A stretch of 25,795 nt of DNA. Source: a virus. Both the position numbers and the translations under genes were made by a program. The stretch is from the IMG/VR virus record IMGVR_UViG_3300033153_013843, positions 1 through 25,795 of that record. One strand, 5' to 3'. The notes under the pieces were generated by a model that did no database searches, was not told the DNA's origin, and worked only from the letters and a program-made list of their open reading frames with translations. Below are positions 1,416-15,380 of this stretch, in pieces; the first letter of the stretch is position 1; the number at the start of each line of letters is the position of its first letter.

Positions 1416-1420
1416 ACAAA

Positions 1421-1424
1421 GGAG
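1421..1424 (+). promoter_or_regulatory. Shine-Dalgarno deciding the start of the ClpP-like gene
   Basis: GGAG at 1421-1424 lies 6 bases before ATG 1431, while the in-frame ATG 1425 touches it directly. This favours 1431, which also gives a clean signal peptide. Confidence 0.6.
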
Positions 1425-1430: not shown

Positions 1431-2198
1431 ATGAAAAAAACAACACTGGCAATTTTATTTTCTTTAGTATTGGTTTTAGTATTTATTTTACCTGGGTTTG
1501 CCGACGAGGAAGGCACAGAAGAGATGCTTAAAATCGCAGAAAAAACTGTCTCTATTTGCCCAAAAACAAAGATGAAAGATGGTTGTATGACATGCCATTC
1601 AATTCCCGATTGGACCCTGAAGGAAAAAAAACCGAACGCCAACAGGTCGCTTCCAGGCTATCCTATTATCGGAATTGAAGATGAAGGCAAAACTGCCGCT
1701 ATGTTAATTACAGACATTACATCGGCAGAGGCGGAAAGGTTTTTTGATTATGTCAGATGGCATCCAGAAATAGATAAATGCATATTTGAAATTCACTCGC
1801 CAGGCGGGTCTCTTTTTGAAGCATGGCGTATTGTTGGCATGATGGAACTATGGAAATCTAAAGGGATGATTATTGAGACGAGGTGTTATGGGTTTGCAGC
1901 GAGTGCTGGGTTCATTATTTTTGTAAACGGTACACCCGAACATAGGTTTGCATCAGCAACATCGGAACTTATGTGGCATGAATTATATACATTTGCAATG
2001 TTCAAAGTTAGTCGGCCATCAGATACAATGGATGAAGCTATTGTTTTAAGACACTTGCAAGATACAGCAAGCAATTTCTTGGCAGAGAGATCAAAACTGA
2101 ATGCAAAAGAATGGGATAAAAAAGTACATAAAAAAGAATTTTGGTGTAATGGTCAACAGGCAATTAAGTTCGGACTTTCTGATGGATATCCAAAATAA
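1431..2198 (+). CDS. secreted ClpP-like serine protease with CxxCH motif
   Basis: A 255-residue protein with a clear Sec signal peptide (MKK, hydrophobic residues 5-21, likely cleavage after GFA at 24), so it acts outside the cytoplasm. Residues about 90-250 resemble the ClpP/crotonase protease fold: SPGG at 123-126 (oxyanion-forming turn), a nucleophile-type FAASAGF with Ser159, and MWHEL with His183 where ClpP has its catalytic His. The ClpP third residue, Asp, is not obvious; the region before AIKFGLSD reads KKEFW. Between signal peptide and protease domain lies GCMTCHS (C52, C55, H56), a textbook c-type heme attachment motif, though it could instead form a disulfide or metal site. Nearest relatives may be periplasmic ClpP/SppA/NfeD-like proteases. 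No partner ATPase is encoded nearby. Confidence 0.7.
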   Translation: MKKTTLAILFSLVLVLVFILPGFADEEGTEEMLKIAEKTVSICPKTKMKDGCMTCHSIPDWTLKEKKPNANRSLPGYPIIGIEDEGKTAAMLITDITSAEAERFFDYVRWHPEIDKCIFEIHSPGGSLFEAWRIVGMMELWKSKGMIIETRCYGFAASAGFIIFVNGTPEHRFASATSELMWHELYTFAMFKVSRPSDTMDEAIVLRHLQDTASNFLAERSKLNAKEWDKKVHKKEFWCNGQQAIKFGLSDGYPK

Positions 2199-2205: not shown

Positions 2206-2334
2206 ATGAAAAAATTTCGCAAATTATTGAAAGAGGCTTTCTTCACAATACTTTTAATACCCCTTTGTCTAATTGGCTGCATACTTTTAATTGCAACAAG
2301 GATATGTCGATGGTGGGAAAAAATCACAGAATAG
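2206..2334 (+). CDS. small single-span membrane protein
   Basis: Read from ATG 2206 this encodes 42 residues: a basic N-terminus (KKFRKLLKEA), one hydrophobic segment about residues 12-28 containing LIGC, and a basic aromatic tail ICRWWEK. ATG 2206 follows AGGA by two bases, a tight spacing; ATG 2182 is an alternative with a poorer site. It sits 7 bases after the protease stop and overlaps the cytidylyltransferase start by 25 bases. It may be a membrane peptide or, because of LIGC, a minimal lipoprotein. Its function is unknown; holin-like roles are possible but not supported. Confidence 0.45.
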   Translation: MKKFRKLLKEAFFTILLIPLCLIGCILLIATRICRWWEKITE

Positions 2335-3056
2335 TAGCAATCATTCAGGCTCGAATGGCTTCAAGCCGATTACCCGGAAAAGTATTGTTGCCATTAGGCC
2401 CAGATGATAATTCAGTTCTATGGTGGATGTTGAAGCGGACCTCGTTAGCTAAATTGGTTGACGAAGCAGTGATTGCAACAACTCTAAATCATTCAAATCA
2501 ACCGATTCGAAAAGCATTTTCACAACAAACATGGAGTTGGGCAGGAAATGAAAATGATGTAATGAGTAGGGTTCTTTGGGTTGCTAAAAAAACAAATGCA
2601 GATATTATTGTAGATTTGAGTTCGGATTGCCCACTTGTAGATCCAAGACACATTGATTATTTAATTGAAACTTTATTAGATTATGAACGAGAATATATGT
2701 CTAATTGTATTTATCGAAACTGGCCAGATGGACTGGATATTCAAGTTTATTTAACCAAAACTTTACAAGAATGCAAGAGGTTATTTGCCCCAAAACAACA
2801 CTGTGGATGGAATATTGCACAACAAACAAAGACATTCGATATAGATCATTGGGATGCTCCATCAGATATGCATTGGCCAGAATTAGGACTAACCCTTGAT
2901 ACCCCAGAAGATTATAAATTATTGAAAATTATATTTGATAAATTTGGCCATAATCCTAATTTTTATGTTGAAGATATAATTTATTATTTAAGGGAATATC
3001 CAGAATTAGTTGAAATTAATAAAAAGGTTCGACGCAAAATGCCAGAAGAGGGATAG
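2310..3056 (+). CDS. SpsF-type cytidylyltransferase (CMP-sugar synthetase)
   Basis: A 248-residue cytosolic enzyme of the SpsF/NeuA-related nucleotidyltransferase family. Its expected role is activating a nonulosonic acid with CTP to the CMP-sugar. The N-terminal strand and nucleotide loop IIQARMASSRLPGK (11-24) is diagnostic. SSDCPLVDP (104-112) corresponds to the metal-binding D/GDCPLIDP motif, WPDGLDIQVY (138-147) to the usual P-DG-D-E segment, and LTLDTPEDY (194-202) to the family's C-terminal signature. Length fits the family (about 240-250). ATG 2310 is chosen because AAGGA lies 7 bases upstream and the protein then begins just before the first strand; TTG 2265 has no such site. It is the first sugar gene in the run and partner to the NeuB-type synthase. 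Sugar identity (pseudaminic, legionaminic or other) cannot be told from sequence. Confidence 0.82.
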   Translation: MVGKNHRIVAIIQARMASSRLPGKVLLPLGPDDNSVLWWMLKRTSLAKLVDEAVIATTLNHSNQPIRKAFSQQTWSWAGNENDVMSRVLWVAKKTNADIIVDLSSDCPLVDPRHIDYLIETLLDYEREYMSNCIYRNWPDGLDIQVYLTKTLQECKRLFAPKQHCGWNIAQQTKTFDIDHWDAPSDMHWPELGLTLDTPEDYKLLKIIFDKFGHNPNFYVEDIIYYLREYPELVEINKKVRRKMPEEG

Positions 3057-3528
3057 AAATATTTTAATAAAAAACAAAACAATAATTTTATTGATACTTT
3101 TGTTTCTCGTTATTGGCTGTGCTGGTCAAAAAATAAGAATAGGAAAAACAATTAATTTCATTGGCCCTAAAAACGATTCTTCTGTTTATTGGATTGATAC
3201 AGATATAAAAAATTATAAATCTTTTGAAATAAATATGCATACTTTTATTTTTAAAAATAAAATTAGGCCTGGAATCGGATGTAGACTTGGAATAGAAAGA
3301 AAAATAAATAATTTTACTATTTTATTTCATGGCGGGGTATCATTGATCCCAAATGGAGGGGACATTCCCGGCCTTGCTAAATCCCCTATTTATGGAACTT
3401 TACGAGCGGGAACAAGATACAAACCGTGGAAAATTGGAATATTTATAGATCATATTTCTTCACCTTTTCATGGCGGAAAAGATGGAGATGACGGTAAAAC
3501 ATTATTTCTTTTAGAGAAAGAATTTTAA
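3010..3528 (+). CDS. probable lipoprotein with outer-membrane-like strands
   Basis: The frame encodes 172 residues from TTG 3010, but the start is doubtful. No ribosome binding site precedes 3010 and the first 17 residues overlap the cytidylyltransferase gene. GAGG at 3048-3051 instead lies upstream of ATT 3061, which would give the cleaner start. Either way KNKTIILLILLFLVIGC is a lipoprotein signal with lipobox VIGC (Cys37 counted from 3010). The mature part alternates hydrophobic and polar residues (RPGIGCRLGIERK, GTLRAGTRYKPWKIGIFIDH) like an outer-membrane barrel. The HISS segment faintly recalls the HxS of lipid A deacylase PagL, but the partner Glu is not evident, so I do not call it. 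Location in a Gram-negative envelope is the safest statement. Confidence 0.6.
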   Translation: MKLIKRFDAKCQKRDRNILIKNKTIILLILLFLVIGCAGQKIRIGKTINFIGPKNDSSVYWIDTDIKNYKSFEINMHTFIFKNKIRPGIGCRLGIERKINNFTILFHGGVSLIPNGGDIPGLAKSPIYGTLRAGTRYKPWKIGIFIDHISSPFHGGKDGDDGKTLFLLEKEF

Positions 3529-3729
3529 GTGAAAATAGCATACATAAATTCATTAATCAAGCAAATTGAAACAAGAAAAAAAAGAATAGTTCAGGCAAGG
3601 GATGAATTACAAGTACTATCAGAAAATCTTGAAGAATGTGTTCGTGATATGAATTGGGGAATTGGGGCTCTTGAAGATGGAATCAAAAACATAAAAGAGG
3701 CGATTGAGGAAATTAGTCAAAATTTATAG
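3529..3729 (+). CDS. small coiled-coil protein
   Basis: 66 residues from GTG 3529, which directly abuts the preceding stop TAA. The sequence is helical and charged with heptad-like leucine and isoleucine spacing (LIKQIETRKKRIVQARDEL, IKNIKEAIEEI) and has no cysteine cluster or membrane segment. The start is weak (GTG with only a degenerate AGAAAGAA upstream), so expression may rely on coupling to the lipoprotein gene. The family and function are not recognised; it could be a small structural or regulatory adaptor. Confidence 0.5.
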   Translation: MKIAYINSLIKQIETRKKRIVQARDELQVLSENLEECVRDMNWGIGALEDGIKNIKEAIEEISQNL

Positions 3730-3739
3730 GAAATTAATT

Positions 3740-3850
3740 ATGAATAAAAGACATGAAAATGAAGCATATGATGTTTTTCAAAAGAGAAGAAAAAAAGCAA
3801 ATAAAAATCGTCGAATTAGAGAAAAGAACAAGGCGAGGAGCATTAAATGA
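3740..3850 (+). CDS. 36-residue very basic peptide
   Basis: ATG 3740 is preceded at good spacing by AGGAAA (3728-3733), and the stop TGA 3848-3850 overlaps the oxidoreductase start at 3847 as ATGA. The peptide is about 40 percent Lys/Arg (QKRRKKANKNRR in the middle) with no hydrophobic segment. A ribosome binding site together with an exact 4-base overlap suggests a real coupled micro-gene. Alternatively it is a leader reading frame whose translation feeds ribosomes to the next gene. The function is unknown, and the charge suggests nucleic acid binding at most. Confidence 0.45.
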   Translation: MNKRHENEAYDVFQKRRKKANKNRRIREKNKARSIK

Positions 3851-4890
3851 AAACTTATAATGTAGTGGTAATTGGTTGTGGATCAATAGGAGCAATGAAA
3901 TCAGATAATATAGATTATCCGGGATCGCCTAATATTCTGACACACGCAAATGCAGTGAAACGGCACCCGAGAACAGAATTATTAGCGCTTATTGATACGG
4001 ATAAAGAAAAGGCAAAAAAAGCCTTTATAAAATGGAATCCTAAAACTGTTGCTGGATCATTTAATTTGCTAAAACAATCAGGATATGAAGTTCCTGATAT
4101 TGCAATCATAGCCGTACCAACAGAAACTCATTATGAAATATTGCATCAAATATATATAAATAATGTTAATAAAATGCCAAAACTTATAATTGCAGAAAAG
4201 CCTTTTTGTTCAGAATTAAATCAAGCACGATCAATTGCAGAATCATATTCTGATTTAGGTATTCCCATCGTAATTGATTATATCCGCCGCTATGCACAGG
4301 GATATAAAGATATCAAAAAGCAAATTGATTTTGGGGCATTTGGCAAGACTTTAAATTGTCGAGTGCTTTATACAAGAGGTATGAAACACGAAGGTTGCCA
4401 TGCTTTGGATTTAATGCGGTATTTCTTTGGAGAATGTAACAGAATTGCCACAAATGAAATATATGATTGCTTATTCACGGGAGAAGGGAAAAATCTATTT
4501 GGGAAAGCGATTATTGATAGAGATGAAAAAGATCCCACTGAATTTGAATGTTATGGATTTGAAAAATGTGATCATGTGGTATTTATGCCCTGTGATGGCA
4601 GAAAATACGGGATTTTTGAAGTCGATATTTGCTTTGAAAAATGCCGTTTAAGATTTATTGATAATGGCCTCTATATTGAAAAATATCCAATTAATGAAGA
4701 AAATGAATGGGGACACAAATCACTTGATTATAGATTGACAAATGTTACTCGACAAGAAACTGGATTAAATATCGCGCTATATAATCTGATAAATAATGCA
4801 GTAAATTTTCTTGATGGAAAAGAGGGTTTAATTTGCACAAATAAAGATGCAATTAAAGTTCATGAAATATTGAACGGGGAAGTAAAATAA
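3847..4890 (+). CDS. Gfo/Idh/MocA family oxidoreductase
   Basis: A 347-residue NAD(P)-dependent sugar oxidoreductase. The Rossmann fold starts at residue 4 with VVVIGCGSIG (glycine loop 10-15), the acidic end of beta2 is LLALIDTD (46-52), and the family's catalytic-lysine motif appears as AEKPF (116-120, Lys118). Around residue 185 GCHALDLMRYFFG matches the conserved G-H-D-L...G helix of the C-terminal domain. Length matches the family (330-390). Members oxidise or reduce sugars and their nucleotide derivatives. Here it sits between a CMP-sugar synthetase and an aminotransferase, so it probably supplies a keto or otherwise modified sugar, but the substrate cannot be assigned. The start is coupled to the preceding 36-residue frame. 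A 192-base gap follows. Confidence 0.85.
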   Translation: MKTYNVVVIGCGSIGAMKSDNIDYPGSPNILTHANAVKRHPRTELLALIDTDKEKAKKAFIKWNPKTVAGSFNLLKQSGYEVPDIAIIAVPTETHYEILHQIYINNVNKMPKLIIAEKPFCSELNQARSIAESYSDLGIPIVIDYIRRYAQGYKDIKKQIDFGAFGKTLNCRVLYTRGMKHEGCHALDLMRYFFGECNRIATNEIYDCLFTGEGKNLFGKAIIDRDEKDPTEFECYGFEKCDHVVFMPCDGRKYGIFEVDICFEKCRLRFIDNGLYIEKYPINEENEWGHKSLDYRLTNVTRQETGLNIALYNLINNAVNFLDGKEGLICTNKDAIKVHEILNGEVK

Positions 4891-4895
4891 TAATT

Positions 4896-5061
4896 CCCAC
4901 AATGGGTTGCTTCAGATTTTTCATTTTTACCGTGTAGTGTTCCGAGCGGTTCCCGATTATCTTTCTGAAGTGTAAAATGCATGAGGATAATTAGGAAACC
5001 TCCAAAGAAAGGAATCAACGGTCTGGCTTCACACTGCATCGGAACTAAGGGCCGTTGATTT
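4896..5061 (+). ncRNA. candidate structured RNA in the gap before the membrane peptide
   Basis: The 192-base gap 4891-5082 is locally richer in G and C than its neighbours and is full of complementary segments. These are: (a) 4948-4961 with 4986-5000, about 13 pairs with one bulge and one mismatch; (b) 5013-5021 with 5052-5060, a perfect 9-base repeat AATCAACGG/CCGTTGATT, extendable with G-U pairs; (c) 4939-4945 with 5039-5045, perfect 7 bases (GTTCCGA/TCGGAAC), which crosses (b) as a pseudoknot; (d) 4910-4915 with 4965-4970 (CTTCAG/CTGAAG), competing with (a); (e) a small CCCA-CAA-TGGG hairpin at 4896-4906. Helix (b) is followed by a T-rich run (5059-5068), so part may act as a terminator. 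The structure was drawn by hand and no known RNA family was recognised. It could be a leader of the downstream genes or a free small RNA. Confidence 0.35.
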
Positions 5062-5082
5062 AATTTTTAAAAGGAAGAAATT

Positions 5083-5241
5083 ATGCCTTGGCAAATAATA
5101 GCAATTGCCTCTTTTGGATTAGGATTTTATTTTGCCATTTATATTTTAGATATATATTATCACAAAGCTATGAAAAATATAATTGATGAAATACATAAAT
5201 GTTATTTAATAGGATTAAAAAAGAGAGAGAGAAATGAATAA
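5083..5241 (+). CDS. 52-residue single-span membrane protein
   Basis: ATG 5083 follows AAGGAAG (5071-5077) at a good distance and the frame runs 52 residues to TAA 5239-5241, overlapping the next start by 8 bases. Residues about 4-25 form one strongly hydrophobic, aromatic segment (IIAIASFGLGFYFAIYIL), followed by a charged helix ending KKRERNE. The topology would be a short N-terminus and a longer basic C-terminal tail in the cytoplasm. The overlap ties it to the outer-membrane-like protein that follows. The function is unknown, and no holin or spanin signature is certain. Confidence 0.5.
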   Translation: MPWQIIAIASFGLGFYFAIYILDIYYHKAMKNIIDEIHKCYLIGLKKRERNE

Positions 5242-5944
5242 ATTTTTAAGACGGTTTATTTTAGCATTATTTGTAACGGTTTTATCTGGAGCAAATTATG
5301 TTTGTGTAAGAGCAGACGACTGGCAACTATCTACTGATATTTATAAAACGGTTGCTTCGGATGTTGAATCAATTGTACAAAGCGGGGCCGGATTACAAGT
5401 ATCGTTACATCGAAAAAGCCTCTTTTTATACCTATCAAAAGACGTAAATCAAGTCAGGTTTGCTGGGCAGGGTGGGCCCGATGTCAACTTGTGGTCGGCT
5501 GGAATCGGTATGCAGCATAAAGCCGGTAAACACTTAACCATATCTTTAGATATCGGATGGTATGAACCTATTTTTAAAGAGAATGGTGAGCCACAATCTT
5601 ATTATTCGTCATCGTTTGCGGAGGGATTAAACCGCTATCTCAATAATTTTCTCATGCCGGATTATGGAGGACAGACGTTTTATCCGGTTTGGGATTATTA
5701 CTCTTTAGAATATCACGGAAGTATAGGCGGTAAAATCAGCCTTGCTTTTGAATATCCGATAACCAAAAGGGCCTCTTTTAATTTAACAGGCGGATATAGA
5801 TATTTAAAACTGCTCGAAAATGTAAAGGGAGAGGATTATGATGGCGGATATGCAAGGCTGGGGGAAGCTGGTTGTTGGACAATTAGATATGATAGAAATT
5901 TCTCTGCATGGATAATTGGTGGGGCTTTTGTTTATAGATTTTAA
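5234..5944 (+). CDS. outer-membrane beta-barrel-like protein
   Basis: 236 residues with a signal peptide (basic MNKFLRRF, hydrophobic 8-20, likely cleavage after VRA at 27). The mature chain consists of alternating polar/apolar strands rich in Tyr, Gly and Trp (GLQVSLHRKSLFLYLSK, KISLAFEYPITK, RASFNLTGGYRYLKL) and ends in FVYRF. A C-terminal phenylalanine is typical of the outer-membrane insertion signal. It therefore very likely sits in the outer membrane of a Gram-negative host as an 8- to 10-stranded barrel. No enzyme motif is evident. Such a barrel inside a phage sugar cassette could alter the receptor surface of a lysogen, but that is inference. ATG 5234 has purine-rich GAGAGAGA upstream. 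Confidence 0.65.
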   Translation: MNKFLRRFILALFVTVLSGANYVCVRADDWQLSTDIYKTVASDVESIVQSGAGLQVSLHRKSLFLYLSKDVNQVRFAGQGGPDVNLWSAGIGMQHKAGKHLTISLDIGWYEPIFKENGEPQSYYSSSFAEGLNRYLNNFLMPDYGGQTFYPVWDYYSLEYHGSIGGKISLAFEYPITKRASFNLTGGYRYLKLLENVKGEDYDGGYARLGEAGCWTIRYDRNFSAWIIGGAFVYRF

Positions 5945-5958
5945 AAAAGGAAAATAAA

Positions 5959-7251
5959 ATGAAACAACTTGCGATAAACGGCGGACCAAAAATAAGAACA
6001 GAATTATTTCCGAGCCAAGATACCTTTGATTGGCATGAATATAATGCCGTTACTGATGTCATGTATAGTGGCAGATTATCAAATTATAGAGCCAATTGGA
6101 CAGATGATTTTTATGGTGGGCCAAAAATAAAAGAACTTGAAGAAAATTGGTCACATAAATTTGGCTCAAAATATTCCATTGCCGTTAATTCGGCAACCTC
6201 TGGCCTTATTGCTGCCTGTGGAGCAATTGGTTTGAAGCCCAGTGATGAAGTGATTGTAACTCCATATTCCATGACATGTAGTGCTACAGTTCCTCTTGTC
6301 TTTGGGGCTCTGCCAGTATTTGCCGACATTGAAGAGGATTATTTTTGCCTTGATCCTGAGGACATCAAAAGAAAAATCACTAAAAAGACAAAAGCAATTA
6401 TTGTCGTTTCTTTATTTGGCCAGCCCTATAATCAAGAAATAAATAAGATTGCAAAAGAACATGGAATATATGTTATTGAAGATGCTGCACAAGCGCCTGG
6501 GGCAATGTATAAAGATAAATATACCGGAACACTTGCTAATATTGGGGTATTCTCTTTTAATTATGGCAAGCATATTAATAGCGGGGAAGGAGGAATAATA
6601 ACGACAGATAACGAACTTCTTAATTTTAGATGCAGGTTATTGGCAAATCACGGAGAGGCCGTTATAAATGATTTAATGAATGACGAAAAACAACGAACAA
6701 ATGGGCTCAAAAATATTATCGGCTTTAATCTCCGAATGACGGAACTTACGGCGGCTGTAGTTATTGAACAACTTAAAAAATTTGATGACCTTTTAGAAAA
6801 AAGATTAAAAAATGTAATTCATCTTGATGGGATATTAGATGAAATAGACCCCATTAATATAACTAACGAAGGAAGATGGGGCACCTATACAAGTCCTGCT
6901 CATACTTTTTATGCACTTTCTTATATCTGGAATAACACTAAACTTCATAGGGATAAATATATCGAAGCAGTCAAAGCAGAATTAATGCCAAGAAAAGATA
7001 GAGATACAGAGGGGGTTCCAATTGGTTGTGGATATATAAAGCCTATCTATTTGATGCCATTATTTCAGGCTAGAACTCATTGGGCTCTTAAAGAAGGATC
7101 ATACTACAAAGGACTTTGCCCTGTTGCCGAAGATCTATGGAAAAATAAATTATTTCTGACATTATTACATGCTCCAAATTCAACTATTGGGGACATGGAT
7201 GATGTTGGCAAAGCATTTGTAAAGGTATGGGAAAATAAAAATGAACTTTAA
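5959..7251 (+). CDS. DegT/DnrJ/EryC1/StrS aminotransferase
   Basis: A 430-residue PLP-dependent sugar aminotransferase. Residues 8-45 contain the start typical of the family (GGPKIRTELFP). Cofactor-site motifs are NSATSGLIAA (77-86), VIEDAAQ (172-178, Asp175 binding the PLP ring nitrogen) and FNYGKHINSGEGG (200-212), with Lys204 as the internal aldimine lysine. It transfers an amino group, usually from glutamate, to a keto-sugar. In a pseudaminic or legionaminic route this follows the 4,6-dehydratase (PseB-type, encoded at 9840). It is longer than the usual 370-400 residues, with extra sequence around 300-360, so it is not a textbook PseC and might act on a different keto-sugar such as the product of the neighbouring oxidoreductase. 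ATG 5959 follows AAAAGGAAAA. Confidence 0.88.
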   Translation: MKQLAINGGPKIRTELFPSQDTFDWHEYNAVTDVMYSGRLSNYRANWTDDFYGGPKIKELEENWSHKFGSKYSIAVNSATSGLIAACGAIGLKPSDEVIVTPYSMTCSATVPLVFGALPVFADIEEDYFCLDPEDIKRKITKKTKAIIVVSLFGQPYNQEINKIAKEHGIYVIEDAAQAPGAMYKDKYTGTLANIGVFSFNYGKHINSGEGGIITTDNELLNFRCRLLANHGEAVINDLMNDEKQRTNGLKNIIGFNLRMTELTAAVVIEQLKKFDDLLEKRLKNVIHLDGILDEIDPINITNEGRWGTYTSPAHTFYALSYIWNNTKLHRDKYIEAVKAELMPRKDRDTEGVPIGCGYIKPIYLMPLFQARTHWALKEGSYYKGLCPVAEDLWKNKLFLTLLHAPNSTIGDMDDVGKAFVKVWENKNEL

Positions 7252-7330
7252 GGGAATAATCATTGCATGTTTATCATCAATGATATTATGGATAATAATA
7301 ATAACATCATGTAGATTAATTTTCCAATAA
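7241..7330 (+). CDS. 29-residue hydrophobic peptide
   Basis: ATG 7241 overlaps the end of the aminotransferase gene by 11 bases and the frame runs to TAA 7328-7330. The peptide has one hydrophobic segment (GIIIACLSSMILWIIIITSC) and a short polar end. The terminal IITSC could be a lipobox or simply part of a membrane helix. The ribosome binding site is weak (GGGA at about 7230), so expression would depend on coupling. It is listed because similar micro-proteins recur in this block, but it may be a chance frame. Confidence 0.3.
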   Translation: MNFKGIIIACLSSMILWIIIITSCRLIFQ

Positions 7331-7346
7331 AAAAAGGGAAATAAAA

Positions 7347-8192
7347 ATGGCAACCAAGTTCATTGCAGAAATTGGTTCAAATCATAATCGCGATATTGTC
7401 CGAACATTAGAATTAATTAACAAAGCAAAAAATATTGGGGCATGGGGAGTAAAGTTTCAGTTGTTTAGGGCAAAAAAATTATATTCTCCGGAATTTAAAA
7501 CACAAATCAAAAAAATGAAAAAGTGGGAATTGCCAAAAAACTTTATTAATCTCATTAAAATGAGATGTCAAGAACTTGATCTTAAATTCATATGTACTCC
7601 TTTTGATCTTGAAGCGGTAGACTTTTTGAAGGATCATATTGATATCTTTAAAATTGGAAGTTATGAATTTCTTTATACAGATTTAATTGAGGCAGTAATC
7701 AATACCGGGCATCCGTGGATTATTTCCACGGGAATGGCAACGTTTTCACAGATGGCGGGGGTTGTAGAAAAAGAATCGAATAATCCCCCTTGCGCTCTTC
7801 TGGCTTGCAATAGTAATTATCCGGCGGAACCAGAAAATTGTAATCTTGGGATAATCAGTAAAATGAAAAATTATTTCTTTCGTTGTCTCGTTGGGTGGAG
7901 CGATCATACAGTTGAACCCGGAGTTATTTATAAGGCTGTTTCTCTTGGTGCCAAAATGATTGAATTTCATTTTGATTTAGAAGATGGAAAGGGATTTGAA
8001 AGTAAAATTGGACATTGCTGGAAACCGAGTCAAATTAAAGATGTAATATATAATATTAAGATCGGGGAAATTGCCGGGCAGGCTAATAATTCTAATGAAA
8101 CAGAAGCTAAAAAATGGAGAACAGATCCGAAAGATGGAATGCGGCCATTGAGAGAATTTAGAGAGGAATTGCTAAAATGCAACATTCAATAG
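7347..8192 (+). CDS. neuB: NeuB-family nonulosonic acid synthase, lacking C-terminal domain
   Basis: 281 residues forming the TIM-barrel catalytic domain of the sialic acid/pseudaminic acid/legionaminic acid synthases, which condense phosphoenolpyruvate with a 6-carbon N-acyl amino sugar. Motifs in order: AEIGSNHN (7-14), GVKFQ (34-38), CTPFD (83-87), FKIGS (101-105), STGM (127-130), NSNYP (155-159), GWSDHT (183-188) and EFHF (206-209). His187 and His208 match, including their 21-residue spacing, the metal-binding His215 and His236 of the meningococcal enzyme. Full-length NeuB proteins are about 340-350 residues and end in an antifreeze-like SAF domain that closes the partner active site. Here the chain stops soon after the barrel, at RPLREFREELLKCNIQ. 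ATG 7347 follows AAAGGGAAA. The sialidase-like gene overlaps its last 16 bases. Confidence 0.88.
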   Translation: MATKFIAEIGSNHNRDIVRTLELINKAKNIGAWGVKFQLFRAKKLYSPEFKTQIKKMKKWELPKNFINLIKMRCQELDLKFICTPFDLEAVDFLKDHIDIFKIGSYEFLYTDLIEAVINTGHPWIISTGMATFSQMAGVVEKESNNPPCALLACNSNYPAEPENCNLGIISKMKNYFFRCLVGWSDHTVEPGVIYKAVSLGAKMIEFHFDLEDGKGFESKIGHCWKPSQIKDVIYNIKIGEIAGQANNSNETEAKKWRTDPKDGMRPLREFREELLKCNIQ

Positions 8193-9256
8193 TTTATAAA
8201 CAAAAAGATAGATATGCCAGTTTTCCATTGCTGACAAAATTAGAAGACCGAGTTTTAATTGGATTTTTTATTGCGCCCGCACCAGATCACACAGGAATAT
8301 ATAGATGGGAATATATGGAATCTGTCAATCAAGGAGATACTTGGCAAAAATGGCAAAAACCAAATAAATCTCTTTTTTATGATTGGCCATCAGTTTCTTC
8401 AAGAGAAATTTCAGATAGATTTGTATATCAATTAAATAAAGAAAAAATTATAACTGGATCATATGGATTTAGAGAACAATGGAATTTTGATAAAGATATA
8501 AAAGAAATTCATAAAAGCAAAAGTTTATTTATTCGATCTTCTAATGATAATTGGAAAACCATGAATCACAGATTTTATGAAATCCCAAATGCCGATATTG
8601 TCTGTACATTTCCAAGGTCATTGGAACCAAGGGAATACGACCCTATAAGACTAATTCCTGCCTATGTTGTTTTAAAAAATGGATTAAATCGGGCATTAGC
8701 CTGGCAATCCGAAGATTTTGGCAAAACCTGGCGATTATATAATATGTTTCCAAGCGAAGTCAATGCTAATGAAATAGCGTTTATTTGGGCATCGGATAGG
8801 ATTCTTGCCCATATACGCAGCGATAGACATCCTTATATCATGGAAAGCTGGAGCGAAGACAATGGTAAAACCTGGACATATCCAACCAATGTATATATAG
8901 AAGATAATAATTTTAGAGGCAATGTAGTTGGCGGACCATCACATCTATTAAGATTAGAAGATGGTAGAATTTTATGCACCTATGGATATCGCTTGAATAA
9001 AATGGGAATAAAAGCTATTGTATCGGAAGATGAAGGCAATACTTGGACAAAGCCGATTATTTTAAGATCTGACGGCGGTTATAGAAGTAGTTTATATAAA
9101 AAGAAATGGTTTTGGCAACAAGAAATTCATCCAGGAAATGACATAGGTTACCCCGTTTCGATTCAACTTGATAATGAAGAAATCTTGACCGCTTATTATA
9201 TAACAACAAAAGATCAGATTACGGGGATCGAAACAACAAAGTGGAAAATTAAATGA
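8177..9256 (+). CDS. BNR/Asp-box sialidase-like protein
   Basis: 359 residues with four Asp-box (S-x-D-x-G-x-T-W type) repeats: SVNQGDTW, SEDFGKTW, SEDNGKTW and SEDEGNTW, the hallmark of six-bladed sialidase propellers. Other family-like segments are RYASFPLL near residue 12 (in the place of the FRIP arginine), RGNVVGGPSHLLRLEDGRILCTYGYR, and near the C-terminus DIGYPVSIQLDNEEILTAYY. No signal peptide is visible, so unless secreted in another way it acts in the cytoplasm or is released by lysis. It might cleave or bind the nonulosonic sugar made by its neighbours; the catalytic Tyr/Glu pair could not be placed with confidence. Its ATG lies inside the end of neuB with GAGGAA about 8 bases upstream, so the two are translationally linked. 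Other Asp-box proteins that are not sialidases exist. Confidence 0.75.
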   Translation: MQHSIVYKQKDRYASFPLLTKLEDRVLIGFFIAPAPDHTGIYRWEYMESVNQGDTWQKWQKPNKSLFYDWPSVSSREISDRFVYQLNKEKIITGSYGFREQWNFDKDIKEIHKSKSLFIRSSNDNWKTMNHRFYEIPNADIVCTFPRSLEPREYDPIRLIPAYVVLKNGLNRALAWQSEDFGKTWRLYNMFPSEVNANEIAFIWASDRILAHIRSDRHPYIMESWSEDNGKTWTYPTNVYIEDNNFRGNVVGGPSHLLRLEDGRILCTYGYRLNKMGIKAIVSEDEGNTWTKPIILRSDGGYRSSLYKKKWFWQQEIHPGNDIGYPVSIQLDNEEILTAYYITTKDQITGIETTKWKIK

Positions 9257-9354
9257 AAGGATTTTTGATATGGTTGGCAATTATGATAGGATCATTTTGT
9301 TTGACTGTAATTATGTTTGCTATATTAGCAGAATTCAATATAATATCATTATAG
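9253..9354 (+). CDS. 33-residue membrane peptide
   Basis: ATG 9253 overlaps the stop of the sialidase-like gene as ATGA and the frame runs 33 residues to TAG 9352-9354. Nearly the whole peptide is hydrophobic (FLIWLAIMIGSFCLTVIMFA), giving a single membrane span with only one lysine at the N-terminus. The exact 4-base overlap and the position between two coupled genes argue that it is translated. Its function is unknown. Confidence 0.4.
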   Translation: MKGFLIWLAIMIGSFCLTVIMFAILAEFNIISL

Positions 9355-9361
9355 GAATAAA

Positions 9362-9646
9362 ATGAGAGACAATACAGATAATTTACGAAAAAATAAATGG
9401 TTACAACAAGAAATAGATTATCTGATTGAAAATTACAATCATAAAAGTAACAAAGAAATTGGGATAGTTATTAAAAAATCCAAAGATGCGGTTGCGGCAA
9501 AACTTTGCTCATTGGGTTTAACAAGAGCAAATAAAAAATATATATCAGAAATAAGAAATACTCATGAAAATTCAATACAGAGAAAAAAATTATTTGCAGG
9601 GTGGGATAAATTATTTGCTCCTCCTAAAATAGAGGAGGAAATATGA
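9362..9646 (+). CDS. Myb/SANT-like helix-turn-helix DNA-binding protein
   Basis: 94 residues. Residues 10-55 match the pattern of small Myb-like HTH domains found in phages: WLQQEIDYLIENY, then KSNKEIGIVIKKSKDAVAAKLCSLGLTR, i.e. W, acidic helix, N-Y, then the recognition helix with A-V-K-L-LGL. The C-terminal 40 residues are polar and end in an acidic tail KIEEEI. It is likely a small transcription regulator or a DNA-binding accessory factor. The ribosome binding site is AGGAAT at 9353. It overlaps the next gene by 4 bases (ATGA) and the pair sits between the sialidase-like gene and pseB, so it may control that part of the cassette, though no operator could be identified. Confidence 0.65.
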   Translation: MRDNTDNLRKNKWLQQEIDYLIENYNHKSNKEIGIVIKKSKDAVAAKLCSLGLTRANKKYISEIRNTHENSIQRKKLFAGWDKLFAPPKIEEEI

Positions 9647-9843
9647 AATATAAAGATTATAATGATTTAAAAGAAGGATTAAAAAATTTACCCGTAACTT
9701 GGTATCCTGCATTGATAATCGAAATGGCATGTGCGGCATATAAACGAAAAGTATTTGTGCCAGGTGGGGCATCAAAGCTTATTAGAGAATTAGAAGAAAA
9801 ACATAGATGGCGATATGGTTTTAAAATAAAGGAGAAGGAATGA
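9643..9843 (+). CDS. small protein of unknown function
   Basis: 66 residues with a strong ribosome binding site (GAGGAGGAAAT) and 4-base overlaps at both ends, with the HTH gene before and pseB after, so it is almost certainly expressed as part of the operon. It is a mixed helical protein: an acidic N-terminus (YKDYNDLKEGL), an apolar middle (WYPALIIEMACAAYKRKVFVPGG) and a basic end. No motif was recognised. It could be a partner of the preceding HTH protein. Confidence 0.6.
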   Translation: MKYKDYNDLKEGLKNLPVTWYPALIIEMACAAYKRKVFVPGGASKLIRELEEKHRWRYGFKIKEKE

Positions 9844-10844
9844 AACATAAAGAAGTATTAATAACTGGCGGAACTGGATCACTTGGTAAAGAGCTTATAA
9901 AACAATTAATAAAACAAAAATGTACAAAGGGAATTCGAATATTTTCAAGGGATGAATTAAAACAATGGGAATTAAGAAAAACATTTGATCCGGCTTGGCA
10001 AATTTCTTTTCTCATTGGTGATATCCGAGATTATGAACGATTAAAAATGGCAATGAAAGGGGTAGATATTGTTATCCATTGTGCCGCACTCAAGCAGGTA
10101 CCATCATGTGAATATAATCCAATAGAGGCGATTAAAACAAATATAACCGGTGCCGAAAATGTTGTCCGTGCCGCATTAGAAAATAATGTCGAAAAAGTGA
10201 TGAACATTAGCACAGACAAGGCGGTGTACCCGATCAACCTTTATGGAATGACAAAAGCAGTTGCCGAAAAACTATTTACACAAGCCAATATATATTCTGG
10301 CAACAGGCAAAAACCAATGTTTGCATCATGCAGATATGGTAATGTTATTGGTTCAAGGGGTAGTATATTCCCTTTATTTACAAAACAAATTAAAAAACAA
10401 GGATATATCACTATAACACATAAGGAAATGACAAGATTTTTTATACCATTAGAACGAGTTGCAGAATTTGTTATTGATAGAATAGAAGATATGAAGCCCG
10501 GCGAAATATATATTCCAAAAATGCCTTCTGCTCATATTCAAATGATTGCAGAGGAATTTATTAAAAAAGCCATTACCCCTGATATTGATGATTTTGGCGA
10601 TGGTGGTATTCCTAAAGTTGAAAGCAAAATAAAAGAAATCGGCATTCGGCCAGGCGAAAAAATCCACGAAACATTAATAACCAAAGAGGAGGGAAAAAGA
10701 GTATTTCATAATGGAATTTTTGGTCATTATACAATTGCACAACAAAATAATATTAAACATCCCATTTTTGGATATCAAAGTGATACTAATCCTGAATGGC
10801 TATCAAGAAAAGATATAAAGGGAATTATTGATGAAACTATATGA
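9840..10844 (+). CDS. pseB: UDP-GlcNAc 4,6-dehydratase (PseB/FlaA1/CapD type)
   Basis: 334-residue short-chain dehydrogenase-type nucleotide-sugar dehydratase. It starts with the NADP-binding LITGGTGSLG (7-16), then GDIRD (60-64) and HCAALKQVP (80-88). The catalytic stretch is STDKAVYP-NLYGMTK (Thr125, Asp126, Lys127, Tyr135, Lys139), followed by RYGNVIGSRGSIFPLF and MTRFFIP, all hallmarks of soluble PseB-type enzymes. Length (about 330) matches soluble PseB rather than the membrane-bound CapD forms. The reaction removes water from UDP-GlcNAc to give the 4-keto-6-deoxy sugar, with C5 inversion in PseB, the first step to pseudaminic acid. The DegT-type aminotransferase (5959) and the GNAT (10831, overlapping by 14 bases) fit the next two steps. 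PseB versus LegB-like or FlaA1-like stereochemistry cannot be settled by eye. Confidence 0.88.
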   Translation: MKHKEVLITGGTGSLGKELIKQLIKQKCTKGIRIFSRDELKQWELRKTFDPAWQISFLIGDIRDYERLKMAMKGVDIVIHCAALKQVPSCEYNPIEAIKTNITGAENVVRAALENNVEKVMNISTDKAVYPINLYGMTKAVAEKLFTQANIYSGNRQKPMFASCRYGNVIGSRGSIFPLFTKQIKKQGYITITHKEMTRFFIPLERVAEFVIDRIEDMKPGEIYIPKMPSAHIQMIAEEFIKKAITPDIDDFGDGGIPKVESKIKEIGIRPGEKIHETLITKEEGKRVFHNGIFGHYTIAQQNNIKHPIFGYQSDTNPEWLSRKDIKGIIDETI

Positions 10845-11424
10845 AAATGATGATATTTATGTAAGGCCATTTACAAAAAACGATATGACAGAACTTTATT
10901 TTAGCTGGTTTTATGACCAAGAAATTACTCGTTTTAATTCGCATGGATTATTTCCTTATTCAGATAAACAAAAGGCAGATTTTATTAAATCCTTAGATAC
11001 TAATATTGTATGGGCAATAATGGCAAAAAATAAAAAAGATGCAATTGATGCAATTAATGAAGGTAACCCCGGTGAATTTGTTCATTCAACATATTACAAT
11101 GATATCCACATTGGCAACATATCCCTACAATCAAGCAACTGGATAAATCGGTCGGCAGAATTCGCAGTAATAATTGGAAATAAAGATTATTGGGGAAAAG
11201 GAATATGCACAACAACCGGGAAATGGCTATTTGATCATGGATTTAATAAACTAAATTTAAATAGAATATGGTCCGGAACTGCTTCCGTTAATACAGGCAT
11301 GATAAAAGTATTCAAAAAACTCGGCATGAAAGAAGAAGGTAGATTTAGAGAAGGAATATATCTTGCCGGTGATTATTGTGATGTTGTTTGCTATGGGAAA
11401 TTAAAAAATGAGCATAATAGATAG
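10831..11424 (+). CDS. GNAT-family N-acetyltransferase (PseH-like role)
   Basis: 197 residues of the RimJ/RimL-type GNAT fold. Features are the N-terminal DIYVRPFTKNDMTELYFSWF, the central HIGNISLQ strand, FAVIIGNKDYWGKGICTTTG (strand beta4 and the acetyl-CoA pyrophosphate loop, Q/RxxGxG-like as WGKGICT) and C-terminal NRIWSGTASVNTGMIKVFKKLGMKEEGRF. It probably acetylates the 4-amino group of the UDP-amino-sugar made by the dehydratase and aminotransferase, as PseH or LegH does; a protein substrate is the alternative. ATG 10831 is preferred to TTG 10828 because AAGGGA lies about 8 bases upstream. Its start overlaps pseB, so the two are coupled. Confidence 0.8.
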   Translation: MKLYENDDIYVRPFTKNDMTELYFSWFYDQEITRFNSHGLFPYSDKQKADFIKSLDTNIVWAIMAKNKKDAIDAINEGNPGEFVHSTYYNDIHIGNISLQSSNWINRSAEFAVIIGNKDYWGKGICTTTGKWLFDHGFNKLNLNRIWSGTASVNTGMIKVFKKLGMKEEGRFREGIYLAGDYCDVVCYGKLKNEHNR

Positions 11425-11611
11425 ATTTTTTCGACATCTTGGAAAACATGAAACTATTTGTAAAGTTGCTGGAAATATTAAAGAACAAAAGAAATGCCCG
11501 GGCCATTTCCCCTCGGCTATGAGTTGTTTTATAGGCACTGGTCGCTGTTCTTTTTTATATTATGAATATTTATGTAATTATCAAGGAGATTTCTATGAAC
11601 ATAATAAATAA
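11408..11611 (+). CDS. small cysteine-rich protein
   Basis: 67 residues overlapping the GNAT gene by 17 bases and the next gene by 17 bases. It has five cysteines (positions about 18, 30, 40, 47 and 56) in KKCPGHFPSAMSCFIGTGRC and nearby, suggesting a small metal-binding protein. GGGAAA lies roughly 8-10 bases before the ATG. No family is recognised, and double overlap makes it less certain than its neighbours. Confidence 0.4.
   Translation: MSIIDRFFRHLGKHETICKVAGNIKEQKKCPGHFPSAMSCFIGTGRCSFLYYEYLCNYQGDFYEHNK
11583..11588 (+). promoter_or_regulatory. Shine-Dalgarno deciding the start at 11595
   Basis: AAGGAG at 11583-11588 lies 6 bases before ATG 11595, ideal spacing. The in-frame ATG 11562 has no such site, so the shorter protein is preferred. 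Confidence 0.6.
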
Positions 11612-11798
11612 AATATTTAAACGAAATAAACCAATAAATATAATAGATGAAATAGAAAAAACAAGATCGGAAAATAATAAAAATTGGATGAATCTGCTTC
11701 GGCTTGCCAAAAAATATGCCCCAGAAGAGGCAAAAGAGATATTCAATAAAATTATCGAATGTGATATGAAAATTAGCAGATTAATGAAGGAGATTTAA
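11595..11798 (+). CDS. small helical protein upstream of maf
   Basis: 67 residues, charged and helical (INIIDEIEKTRSENNKNWMNLLRLAKKYAPEEAKEIFNKIIE), with no membrane segment or cysteine cluster. It is preceded by a near-perfect ribosome binding site and its stop overlaps the maf start (TAATG), so it is co-translated with the glycosyltransferase. The YAPEEAKEIFNKII stretch is reminiscent of a single TPR-like helical hairpin, but one repeat is not enough to call. Its function is unknown; it may be a small partner of the Maf protein. Confidence 0.55.
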   Translation: MNIINKIFKRNKPINIIDEIEKTRSENNKNWMNLLRLAKKYAPEEAKEIFNKIIECDMKISRLMKEI

Positions 11799-13186
11799 TG
11801 CAAAAAATTCTACAGAAAAATCTCGGAGTCCTACAAAAGATAAATCCTGCCTTAACAGAATGGCTCAAAAAAGAAAAATCCATTGACTGGATACAAAAAA
11901 TAAAAAGCCAAAATGGAGACGATAATTTTCTTATTGAATCAGGCAGCCAATTCACCCCTGCCTATTCAATGAAAAATCCAGTGAAAGAGGCTAAAAAAGC
12001 TGTCAAAAAAATGGATCTTCATAAAGAAAATGTTTCTATCTTGCTCGGGATAGGCCTTGGATATCTTGTTAATGAAATTCTAATCAAGATGGAAAAAGGG
12101 CATAAACTAATTGTTATTGAGCCCGTGGCGGATATATTAAAATTAACCTTGAGTAAATTTGATTTCACTAAGTATTTTGAAAATGGTTCATTGCTTTTGG
12201 TTACCCCAGGTGGCACCGATACTATAGGGGCCAAATTAACTTTTGCTTTGCATTTTTTAAGTAGTCAATCCGTGATAGAGGCGTGGCCATTTACAATTGA
12301 ACTCTATACTCAAAAAAGATCAGATGAATATAAGGATTTAACGAAACTTACTTTGGATGTTCTTAATCAAATTCTTTGTAATACCGGAACGATTGCGGGA
12401 GCCGCAGGCGGAATCATTGCCGATAACGATATGCGATGTATGCCATATTTAATTAGACATCGAGGGGTGGCCGAATTAAAAAATTTATACAAAGGCAAAC
12501 CTGCCATTTTAGTAAGTACTGGTCCCTCTCTTGCTAAAAATATTCATCATTTAATTGATATACAAGACAAGGTTATTATTATTTGTGTTGGGCAGGCATT
12601 GAGGGTTTTGCTTGCTTATGATATTCGACCGGATTTTGCTTGTACGGTAGATTTTGGAGAAGTTAATTATGTTCATTTTAAGGGATTAATGAATTGTGGA
12701 ATACCCCTTGTAACAATAAATAGAACATATGCAAAACTAATAAAAGATTGGCAAGGACCAAAATTTGTTGCGGCAACTCCAGTTCCGGGATTCGAAAAAA
12801 TGGCAACTGGAATATTAACGGATAAGGGATTCATCGAAGCCGGAGGATCTGTTGCTCATTTATGTTTTGGCCTCGCACAATTACTTGGGTGCAATCCAAT
12901 TACATTTATTGGGCAAGATTTGGCTCTTGGAGAAACTTCTCATATCGCACAAGCAGATGCTGGAGGAGAAGTATTTGTTGACAAAAATGGATTAATTGGA
13001 TGGAAAGTAAAGGATCAACGATGCCATTTATTTAGTGATGATTTACACGGGATGGGTTATGTTCAATATGTGCCTGGATATTATGGGCGGCCAGTTATGA
13101 CAAATGCAGGGTTAATGTCATTTTTGACTGTATTCGAAGGAATGGTAGAAAGATATTCGAAAGGGGATAAAAATGCCACTTTATAA
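11798..13186 (+). CDS. Maf/DUF115 glycosyltransferase, N-terminal and catalytic part
   Basis: 462 residues of the motility-accessory-factor (MAF_flag10, DUF115) family, enzymes that put pseudaminic or legionaminic acid on serine or threonine of flagellins. An N-terminal Rossmann-like domain has SILLGIGLGYL (80-90) and LIVIEP (104-109). The DUF115 core has KPAILVSTGPSL (234-245), PDFACTVDF (278-286), AGGSVAHLCFGLA (348-360) and FIGQDLA (370-376), then VPGYYGRPVMTNAGLMSFLTVFE near the end. Intact Maf proteins continue from that last segment straight into a TEGG-containing motif and a helical C-terminal region. Here the frame instead runs 7 residues past Lys455 to a stop at 13184-13186, overlapping an HNH gene. 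The missing motif starts the protein encoded at 13890, so this is the first piece of a split glycosyltransferase. It has an AAGGAG site before ATG 11798. Confidence 0.85.
   Translation: MQKILQKNLGVLQKINPALTEWLKKEKSIDWIQKIKSQNGDDNFLIESGSQFTPAYSMKNPVKEAKKAVKKMDLHKENVSILLGIGLGYLVNEILIKMEKGHKLIVIEPVADILKLTLSKFDFTKYFENGSLLLVTPGGTDTIGAKLTFALHFLSSQSVIEAWPFTIELYTQKRSDEYKDLTKLTLDVLNQILCNTGTIAGAAGGIIADNDMRCMPYLIRHRGVAELKNLYKGKPAILVSTGPSLAKNIHHLIDIQDKVIIICVGQALRVLLAYDIRPDFACTVDFGEVNYVHFKGLMNCGIPLVTINRTYAKLIKDWQGPKFVAATPVPGFEKMATGILTDKGFIEAGGSVAHLCFGLAQLLGCNPITFIGQDLALGETSHIAQADAGGEVFVDKNGLIGWKVKDQRCHLFSDDLHGMGYVQYVPGYYGRPVMTNAGLMSFLTVFEGMVERYSKGDKNATL
13161..13166 (+). promoter_or_regulatory. Shine-Dalgarno of the inserted HNH gene
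   Basis: AAGGGG at 13161-13166, 6 bases before ATG 13173, lies within the last codons of the first maf fragment. It marks the left side of the presumed insertion. Confidence 0.5.
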
Positions 13187-13868
13187 ATATGGAAAGGGAG
13201 TATGGGCCAATACAAAAATACAATTATGTTCTTGTGGCTGTGAAATGGTTCTTCCTAAACGTAAAAGAAAATATGGAAAAGAAGTATTTATAAGAGGTCA
13301 TCGAAAAAGAGGATATAAAGGATATGAAAAATATATTAAAAAAATTGAAGAAGAAAGATTAAAAAAATGGAATACCGGTAAATCATGGCCATCTATTAAA
13401 GATGTAGTAAAATACAATAAAGATCAAATAAATAAAGGTCAGTTCAAAGCAACAATAAAAAATGCACACGAATGCTGTTGGGCTTGTGGCAGAAAAGATC
13501 TTCCATTAGAACGTGCCCATGTTATTGCAAGAAGACATACCAATGGCAATAATCATCCACAAAATATATGGCTGTTATGTCCTGGTTGCCATTTAATTCA
13601 ACCCGATAATGTTCCAATTAAAGCCCAATTAAAATGGATAAAACAAATACCAAAATATGATAAAGATATAACTTTTCATAAACGTATTTATAATACTATG
13701 CTTGGAATGTCATTGAGGTGGGATATACCTGTAAATAATCAAGGATTACAAGAAATTTTTACTTTGTGGGTTAGGCTACAAATGAAACTCAATTTATTAA
13801 CCTTTTGTGAAAAAGAAGACTTAGCTTATTTAGAACAAGATAATAGATTAAATTTTTTATCTAACTAA
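13173..13868 (+). CDS. HNH endonuclease (free-standing, splitting maf)
   Basis: 231 residues. The N-terminal 50 are basic and hold a CSCGC cluster (Cys19, 21, 23), a likely zinc/DNA-binding element, followed by a charged helix. The HNH nuclease module is residues 101-140: CWACG (Cys102, 105), ERAHVIARR with His116, NHPQNIWLLCPGCH with Asn131, Cys136, Cys139 and His140, i.e. H-N-H plus a structural Cys4 zinc site. It would cut double-stranded DNA with its metal-bound His-Asn-His centre. It starts within the end of the first maf fragment and stops 21 bases before the second, leaving no room for a group I intron; it is also not in frame with either piece, which excludes an intein. It therefore looks like a stand-alone homing-type gene that invaded maf. 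Confidence 0.82.
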   Translation: MPLYKYGKGVWANTKIQLCSCGCEMVLPKRKRKYGKEVFIRGHRKRGYKGYEKYIKKIEEERLKKWNTGKSWPSIKDVVKYNKDQINKGQFKATIKNAHECCWACGRKDLPLERAHVIARRHTNGNNHPQNIWLLCPGCHLIQPDNVPIKAQLKWIKQIPKYDKDITFHKRIYNTMLGMSLRWDIPVNNQGLQEIFTLWVRLQMKLNLLTFCEKEDLAYLEQDNRLNFLSN

Positions 13869-13889
13869 TTATAAAACAAAGGAAAATCT

Positions 13890-15380
13890 ATGAATAAACT
13901 CGTAATCAATTCAACCGAAGGCGGGGCCCATATCAAGGGTGCAAAAAGAATATCTCTCAAAAATGTCATCAAAAAATATTGCCAAAATCCTATTGATAAA
14001 TCAATAATAACCCCACTTTTATCCCATGCCGACAATGCCAACGAACTAATCGAAAAGGTCATTCCTTTACTCAAACAAGATATTGATATTTTAAATGAAA
14101 TAATAATCAATAGTAGAAAGGGAATAGCAGTTAGTCATGGCATTAAAACCCTGATAAATCGCCCTGAATATAACCGATTATTGCCTAAAAAAACAGAAAA
14201 GATGTTCGGTAAGCTAAACCAAAAAGCCATACAAAAATCACAAGGAAATCAATTATTGGTAAATCAACTGTTTTTTAAAATGGCAATTGATAGGCTAAAA
14301 AAATGTAGACTCAAAACAATGATGATTATGTCAAATAAAAATTTCATATTCTCTGAATTTGCTCATATTGCTGCTGTTAAAAATCCCTTGGTTAATGTGG
14401 CTATATACGGGGCAACCAGACAAATTGCTACACGAGGATTAAAAGTTGACCCCACTATCAATCATTTTTTAAAGAATAAAAAAGATGCAATAATTCGAAC
14501 AGAACGCAATATGATTATTCTAAACGCCGCCAAAACCGCCTCTGAATCTTTAAAAAAATCATATAGAAAAACTTTAAAACTTCTGAAAAAATATGATAAA
14601 ACAAAGGACGATAATCTATTAACTTCATTTGAAAAAGAACCTATTGATTTAAAAGATGCTGAAGATTATTTCAAAGCAGGCAACTGGGCACATCCTCTGT
14701 TAGATGCTAACAAAGTATTAAAAGAAAATAAAATTTCACAGTATAAAAAGGCTAAAAAGATATACGATAAAGCATGGAATATGAGATACAAAGCAATCTA
14801 TAAAGCTAAAGAAGACGAAAAAGAACATCACGATAAAATGATCAAATTAGTTAAATATAATGAATTACTTGAAAATGCAAAAGATGTTGGTAGATTAGAT
14901 AAAGATTTTGACAAAGCATTAAAATTAATGAAAGAAGCAATTGAATTAATGCCAGATGAACAAGAAGCAAGATGGGGATTGGCCACTGCCTTACATCATG
15001 CGCAAAAAATAGAAGAGGCCGTCGAAGAATATAAAAAACTTATTGAAGATTTTCCCGACAATAATACATTTCGGTTTGAATATGGACAAGTTTTACTTCT
15101 TGAAAATGATTTAAAAGAAGGACTTAAACAAATCGGAATAGTCATGGAAAAGACAGATGAATTTGATAGTTTTTTGGCCCGATTAGGCGAAATATATGAA
15201 CACGCCGGAATGGATAAAGAGGCCCTTGTAGCTTATAATGCTTATTTAAAAAAATATCCATATGACTACAAAATATGGAATAAAAAAGGCGATTGCCTCA
15301 CTGCATTAAATAGAAAAGCAACCGCCAAAAAAGCCTATCAGAAGGCACTTGATATTAAACCCGATTTAGAATTACAATAA
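13890..15380 (+). CDS. Maf glycosyltransferase C-terminal part with TPR repeats
   Basis: 496 residues beginning NKLVINSTEGGAHIKGAKRISL. In intact Maf/DUF115 proteins an INATEGGA-x-I-x-G motif of this kind follows about a dozen residues after the F-E pair that ends the catalytic domain. Joining Lys455 of the first fragment to Asn2 here restores that spacing exactly. Residues about 20-320 are helical and basic like the Maf C-terminal region. Residues about 330-496 form around four TPR units (ALKLMKEAIELMPDEQEARWGLATAL, EEAVEEYKKLIEDFPDN, KEALVAYNAYLKKYP, KKAYQKALDIKPD), a protein-binding surface that could recruit the acceptor or the first fragment. It has its own site (AAAGGAAAA) before ATG 13890. 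Whether the halves reassemble is not known. It is the last plus-strand gene before the convergent tail genes. Confidence 0.75.
   Translation: MNKLVINSTEGGAHIKGAKRISLKNVIKKYCQNPIDKSIITPLLSHADNANELIEKVIPLLKQDIDILNEIIINSRKGIAVSHGIKTLINRPEYNRLLPKKTEKMFGKLNQKAIQKSQGNQLLVNQLFFKMAIDRLKKCRLKTMMIMSNKNFIFSEFAHIAAVKNPLVNVAIYGATRQIATRGLKVDPTINHFLKNKKDAIIRTERNMIILNAAKTASESLKKSYRKTLKLLKKYDKTKDDNLLTSFEKEPIDLKDAEDYFKAGNWAHPLLDANKVLKENKISQYKKAKKIYDKAWNMRYKAIYKAKEDEKEHHDKMIKLVKYNELLENAKDVGRLDKDFDKALKLMKEAIELMPDEQEARWGLATALHHAQKIEEAVEEYKKLIEDFPDNNTFRFEYGQVLLLENDLKEGLKQIGIVMEKTDEFDSFLARLGEIYEHAGMDKEALVAYNAYLKKYPYDYKIWNKKGDCLTALNRKATAKKAYQKALDIKPDLELQ

Follow-up and report, generated by a model that had tools for sequence, protein, structure and literature searches.

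A phage family of exported-looking ClpP-fold proteins with a conserved cytochrome-type Cys-His module

ClpP-type proteases generally count as cytoplasmic machines, and those encoded by phages are mostly read as head proteases. The fold also has an envelope-located relative, the signal peptide peptidase SppA (S49), which uses a Ser-Lys dyad and, to our knowledge, carries no CxxCH motif.

The gene family described here starts from a 25,795-base virus record of the IMG/VR type, which was analysed over its whole length and is called the window below; the bacterial viruses that carry the family are known solely through environmental DNA. With ClpP (S14, PF00574) the family shares the fold and the G-x-A-x-S and M-x-H active-site motifs, but it differs in its signal-peptide-like start, its cysteine module and the Glu or Asn that stands in for Asp; the window protein (P0001) also scores far under the cut-off of the clpP model TIGR00493 (31.1 vs 308.6 bits). 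An exported protein would lack ATP, unlike canonical ClpP, a tetradecamer with a partner AAA+ ATPase. The phage head maturation protease (phrog_94, NF045542) is likewise a phage-encoded ClpP fold, whereas our family looks exported. Profiles of SppA match 12 of the 15 family members weakly (best E 5.1e-6), yet the family has Ser-His-Glu where SppA has its dyad. Like c-type cytochromes such as NapB, the proteins look exported and contain CxxCH (a weak match); they differ in having a single CxxCH, an invariant Cys-Pro and a fused peptidase, and no cytochrome domain over cut-off. PADLOC returned one defence model, cas_RFas, in 2/15 members (E 0.0011 at best). Phage spanins (Rz/Rz1) are envelope proteins encoded near the endolysin, according to PMC9239132, and our family differs from them in having an enzyme fold.

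The gene and its parts are listed in Table 1. A first-pass annotation of the window had proposed a signal peptide, a C52-M-T-C55-H56 motif and a ClpP-like domain in its product. The start of the protein is indeed signal-peptide-like, as judged by hydropathy only, with two lysines, a hydrophobic core at about residues 6-20 and, in an AXA-like scan, G-F-A preceding D25. The motif is present in the translation exactly as described, and the ClpP-like domain was borne out by PF00574 (59.6 bits vs a cut-off of 20.2). No well-defined cleavage site stood out behind this segment, so that some members could remain anchored in the membrane.

Table 1. Positions of the ClpP-like gene, its parts and the adjoining small ORF in the window
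Feature	Position	Strand	Basis or remark
Exported-looking ClpP-like product (255 aa plus stop) bearing the CxxCH module	1431..2198	+	translation, Pfam
Shine-Dalgarno-like AAGGAG	1419..1424	+	6 bases before ATG at 1431
Signal-peptide-like segment, residues 1-24	1431..1502	+	hydropathy, AXA-like scan
Cysteine module, residues 41-75 (C43-P44, C52-x-x-C55-H56, P75)	1551..1655	+	conservation, dN
CxxCH (C52 M T C55 H56)	1584..1598	+	translation, alignment
ClpP domain, residues 117-251	1779..2183	+	PF00574 E 4.8e-16; predicted fold
Ser158, predicted nucleophile	1902..1904	+	invariant 15/15
His183, predicted catalytic base	1977..1979	+	invariant 15/15
Glu236, at position of catalytic Asp	2136..2138	+	Glu 13/15, Asn 2/15; alignment to 1y7o
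Single-span membrane peptide ORF, 42 aa, stop included	2206..2334	+	7 bases past stop of ClpP-like gene

In the AlphaFold2 model of the window protein the ClpP domain is mostly confident, and residues 23-66 have pLDDT under 50. The N-terminal module of a second member was also modelled at low confidence, with block means of about 45-63. All 50 PDB matches listed by Foldseek belong to ClpP; for 8r04 chain G the rmsd is 2.1 over 172 columns. Among the 50 listed matches to viral models, names of the ClpP type prevail and many entries are unnamed; the few other names include putative tail protein and crotonase.

The predicted active site required a correction. Ser159, named earlier as the active-site serine, is an alanine in the translation, and the predicted nucleophile is the preceding residue, Ser158, within G-F-A-A-S-A-G. 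The proposed His183 is found, like Ser158, in all 15 members. The remark that there is no clear catalytic Asp holds, as Asp never occurs at the third triad position, but Glu236 aligns there. In a profile alignment to the ClpP structure 1y7o it pairs with the residue which we take to be the catalytic Asp of ClpP. Across the family the position holds Glu in 13/15 members and Asn in the other two.

The consistent lack of Asp, together with the two Asn-bearing members, would fit a catalytically dead ClpP-fold protein that serves in binding or as a scaffold. Against this stand the invariance of Ser158 and His183 and the presence of Glu, a usable acid, in most members. Furthermore, in PMC9765437, Listeria ClpP1 is described as having Asn at the third triad place, and its active triad is lined up only in complex with ClpP2. 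As this Asn-bearing protein is active with its partner, a missing Asp need not mean a dead enzyme. We consider the dead protein quite unlikely and expect that the family members are probably active peptidases.

The first relative of the window protein was found at 76-78% identity and two further ones, identical to each other, at 40%; all of them keep the three cysteines and the histidine of the N-terminal module. Family scans used the active-site motif alone and then two ClpP-core patterns, so that cysteines played no part in selection. Members that have lost the pattern stretches escape these scans, so that divergent ones, with or without CxxCH, may be missed. The resulting family comprises 14 full-length genes, the window gene included, and one fragment (L033). 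One member that was cut at the edge of its locus (L024) was completed as L066, and there are near-copies within the set (L035 and L070; L032 and L033). Because all 13 full-length relatives of the window gene were recovered by the ClpP-core patterns alone, the conservation of CxxCH is not a selection effect. PF00574 matched 15/15 members at E up to 1 and was over its cut-off in each of the 13 records searched, one of which is a SAR86 genome.

Every one of the 14 full-length proteins carries the Cys-Pro, the CxxCH and, by hydropathy, a signal-peptide-like start. Invariance in the N-terminal region is confined to C43, P44, C52, C55, H56 and P75, and the spacing of the Cys3-His set differs between members. 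The third invariant cysteine, C43 of the Cys-Pro, had been absent from the first-pass annotation, which also did not foresee the phage origin of the family, the Glu in place of Asp or the lysis genes beside the gene in 6/13 records. The linkage of an exported-looking ClpP fold to a heme-type motif, which it had singled out, turned out to be conserved. The refuting case that the annotation had named, a homologue with the protease domain but no CxxCH, did not turn up within the family, where 14/14 full-length proteins have the motif. Distant ClpP relatives lack it: the motif occurs in none of the 24 ClpP-like rows called outside the family (22 loci of ordinary phage ClpP, L006 and the second ClpP in L041; 5 rows are flagged duplicates).

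The family is also set apart by score and by phylogeny. A profile of seven members gave at least 232.9 bits for full-length rows and 134.6 for the cut L024, and the next ClpP reached 70.0; L024 in its completed form (L066) scored 330 bits with profile A4. In a tree of 34 ClpP domains the 15 family rows form one side of a 99/99 branch, at which, as the tool warned, long branches meet.

Between the window gene and its relatives L002 and L039, dN was 0.13 in residues 41-75, vs 0.57 in residues 24-40 and 0.47 in residues 76-114. For the CxxCH module dN/dS was about 0.08 in the comparison with L002, a value from a short stretch with high dS (1.6). The cysteine module behaves as a discrete constrained unit on flexible, fast-evolving linkers. 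Sixteen of the loci together hold 249 other ORFs of 100 aa or more, and CxxCH is present in three of these; the one in the window was checked by Pfam and gave HNH at 21.3 bits, just below the cut-off of 21.4. A chance motif is ruled out by the conservation in all full-length members, the counts outside the family and in other ORFs, and the dN constraint.

We are all but certain that a distinct phage family with exported members is real. Judged from its sequences, it is a variant of the ClpP kind, exported by look and bearing a cytochrome-type Cys-His module, with a putative chemistry and task that are taken up below.

The module might carry heme. The residues between the cysteines of CxxCH are hydrophobic or Ala, followed by a mostly polar one, which is the heme type. 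When the N-terminal profile was compared with the PDB at E up to 10, 73 sequences matched, the best being the diheme cytochrome NapB (E 0.0062). The 60 that were listed bear, with one or two exceptions, labels of c-type cytochromes or heme enzymes; at least one entry, 1cb0, is no heme protein. Below NapB no listed match has an E better than 0.3, variants of a single yeast cytochrome c account for many of the entries, and all matches rest on the CxxCH core itself. No cytochrome domain exceeded its Pfam cut-off in the 15 members: the best was NrfB-like, at E 0.13 and in 2/15 members, with 13.2 bits vs a cut-off of 27 on the window protein. No Met or His other than H56 is invariant in the N-terminal region, which leaves C43 as the one candidate for a second ligand.

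C43 would equally suit a Cys3-His metal site. In the alternative reading no heme is attached, and the module would instead be a zinc or Fe-S site or hold a disulfide with a structural or regulatory role, with the rest of the reading intact. It draws on the third invariant cysteine, which makes up a Cys3-His set of variable spacing, on the fact that CxxCH is found in zinc proteins too (the other CxxCH ORF of the window is HNH-like) and on the missing cytochrome domain. It sits less well with the PDB matches, which are nearly all cytochromes and not zinc proteins, albeit weak and biased by the motif, and with the exported location, which disfavours bare thiol clusters. We give this alternative somewhat less than an even chance. 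Covalent heme on the N-terminal module is plausible on the basis of these motif and profile data, with the scales about level.

The tblastn matches listed from phage records and plasmids rose no higher than general ClpP strength. In phage records, tblastn with five members gave best scores of 70, 51, 58, 56 and 67 bits among the matches listed (the best 40 of 58, 20 of 38, 6 of 398, 6 of 13 and 6 of 586 records), at identities of up to 32%. A plasmid search with one query reached 59 bits at best, with 16/16 matches listed. Profile A3 at 1e-15 had 0 matches in 398 Pseudomonadota genomes, a search that included no positive control. With profile A4 no family member was found in 369 Gammaproteobacteria genomes, some of which also belong to the former set; the best score, 59.5 bits, lies in the range of ordinary ClpP, vs 286 to 370 bits for the positive control in 13/13 phage records. 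A scan of genome contigs with A2 and narrow patterns recovered only a SAR86 ClpP. That a cellular gene was caught in a virus contig is not supported, with no member in either the Pseudomonadota or the Gammaproteobacteria genomes. The GC content of the family loci runs from 0.34 to 0.60, with CxxCH invariant throughout, and this range suggests several hosts.

In the window, four minus-strand genes match tail and baseplate families by PHROG profiles. On the plus strand an ATPase-like gene (phrog_15167) and then a small gene with CxxC pairs lie upstream of the ClpP-like gene, and a NeuA-like gene (PF02348) comes after it. The placement between the small CxxC-bearing gene and the NeuA-like gene recurs in the sister contig L002; the small gene had no Pfam match at E < 0.03. 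An Rfam search of the window returned no match. The 42-aa membrane peptide ORF has a close copy in the sister contig L039 (10710-10835) and a sole phrogs match at E 0.047. It is possibly a small lysis-type peptide, and whether it belongs to the system of the ClpP-like protein is uncertain.

Positions 2265-13186 of the window make up a nonulosonate-type sugar cassette with NeuA-like (PF02348), Gfo/Idh, DegT aminotransferase, NeuB, BNR-repeat, Polysacc_synt_2 dehydratase and Maf/MptE-like glycosyltransferase genes, a large part of which L002 and L069 have in common with it. Judged by eye, 5234-5944 encodes a signal-peptide-bearing barrel-like protein and 3010-3528 a small lipoprotein-like one; neither of them matched Pfam at E up to 1. 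At 11798-15380 the HNH-like gene is flanked by the Maf/MptE-like gene and a TPR gene. Since a single 950-aa ORF of a sister contig (L069 3361-6210) starts like the Maf/MptE-like gene, the window may have had a fused gene here that was split by the HNH gene.

By its best PHROG name the window protein would be a head maturation protease of the phage (phrog_94, E 3.1e-19), and NF045542 matched 15/15 members at E up to 0.01, with a score below cut-off shown for P0001 only (49.2 bits vs 120). However, G008 has a head protease of its own (phrog_94 E 1.1e-56) between the portal and major head protein genes, and there the exported protein is a second gene elsewhere. A signal-peptide-like start in every full-length member also argues against this assignment, and the scans showed no head gene among the neighbours of the ClpP-like gene in the window. 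We rejected the head protease identity, which we hold to be highly improbable, on the missed NF045542 cut-off and the separate gene in G008, the sole record showing this. As a separate observation, the record that holds the family member L032 (G005) also encodes a second ClpP-like protein, P0004 (L068 8353-9072, minus strand), with a lipobox-like start and without CxxCH; its gene lies close to a terminase gene.

Lysis genes are generally nearby and co-transcribed, as stated in PMC9239132. Thirteen records, with those of L033 and L035 not included, were searched for two endolysin families (PF00959 and PF13539); with two families covered and the records fragmentary, an absence is weak. Endolysins were detected in six of them, PF00959 in four and PF13539 in two. 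The endolysin is directly upstream of the ClpP-like gene in G004, G008, G012 and G013. In G007 the order is endolysin, DUF5658 protein, phrog_1544 protein and ClpP-like gene, with two membrane-protein genes thus lying between, and the lysozyme gene of G011 lies on the opposite strand at a distance of about 3.2 kb. A holin-type gene overlaps the start of the ClpP-like gene in G010 (PF11351 24.9 bits vs a cut-off of 24.8; phrog_3427 holin, E 3.4e-9). Its product also matches phrog_1544, a family named unknown function, members of which adjoin the ClpP-like gene in L031, L036 and L025. Altogether the ClpP-like gene is in a lysis block in 6/13 records; no adjoining lysis gene was seen in the remaining seven, which include the window and L002. 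In L070 and L035 it comes after a tail sheath gene.

In L066 the stretch directly upstream of the family member (6074-8415) encodes a trypsin-like protease that looks exported and a radical SAM/SPASM protein. Such company, and in the window and L002 the sugar cassette with its lipoprotein-like and barrel-like genes, would suit an accessory protease of the moron type, exported and with the host envelope as its target in the course of infection and not in lysis, for example against superinfection or in surface remodelling. The lysis-block position in the six records speaks against it, and we regard the accessory role as rather unlikely. Because the gene adjoins holin and endolysin genes in several phages, an envelope role at or near lysis is the job we find most likely, a judgement that we hold at about even confidence.

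The best explanation starts from the fold assignment by sequence and model, the conservation, the family and the gene neighbourhood, from which we infer export, activity, the cofactor and the lysis role. A phage-encoded ClpP-fold serine peptidase would be exported by Sec. After export, the N-terminal Cys-Pro ... Cys-x-x-Cys-His module would take up a cofactor, most likely covalent heme attached by the host cytochrome c maturation system. The ClpP domain, with its predicted Ser158-His183-Glu236 triad, would then cleave proteins or peptides of the envelope with no Clp ATPase involved, and would do so at or near lysis. Taken as a whole, this reading of an exported ClpP-fold peptidase with an N-terminal cofactor module and a lysis-stage envelope job stays tentative, a little short of an even bet. 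In a bolder version, which we think improbable, a ClpP-type protease with covalent heme would be a lysis-stage effector. Its one heme c, the iron of which would be bound by His56 and perhaps by the thiolate of the invariant Cys43, would let the envelope's redox or energy state switch the peptidase, so that it acts only after the holin collapses respiration.

A word-based search of open-licence PMC papers did not find the pairing of a serine peptidase with heme c, which is no claim of its being unpublished. If heme is attached, serine peptidase and heme c would be combined in one protein. In about half of the records the family has lysis genes as neighbours, a hint that phages may possess in it an unrecognised means of attack on the bacterial envelope. 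A conserved exported ClpP-fold phage family of this kind, with a cytochrome-like module, would represent an envelope enzyme that has so far gone unrecognised.
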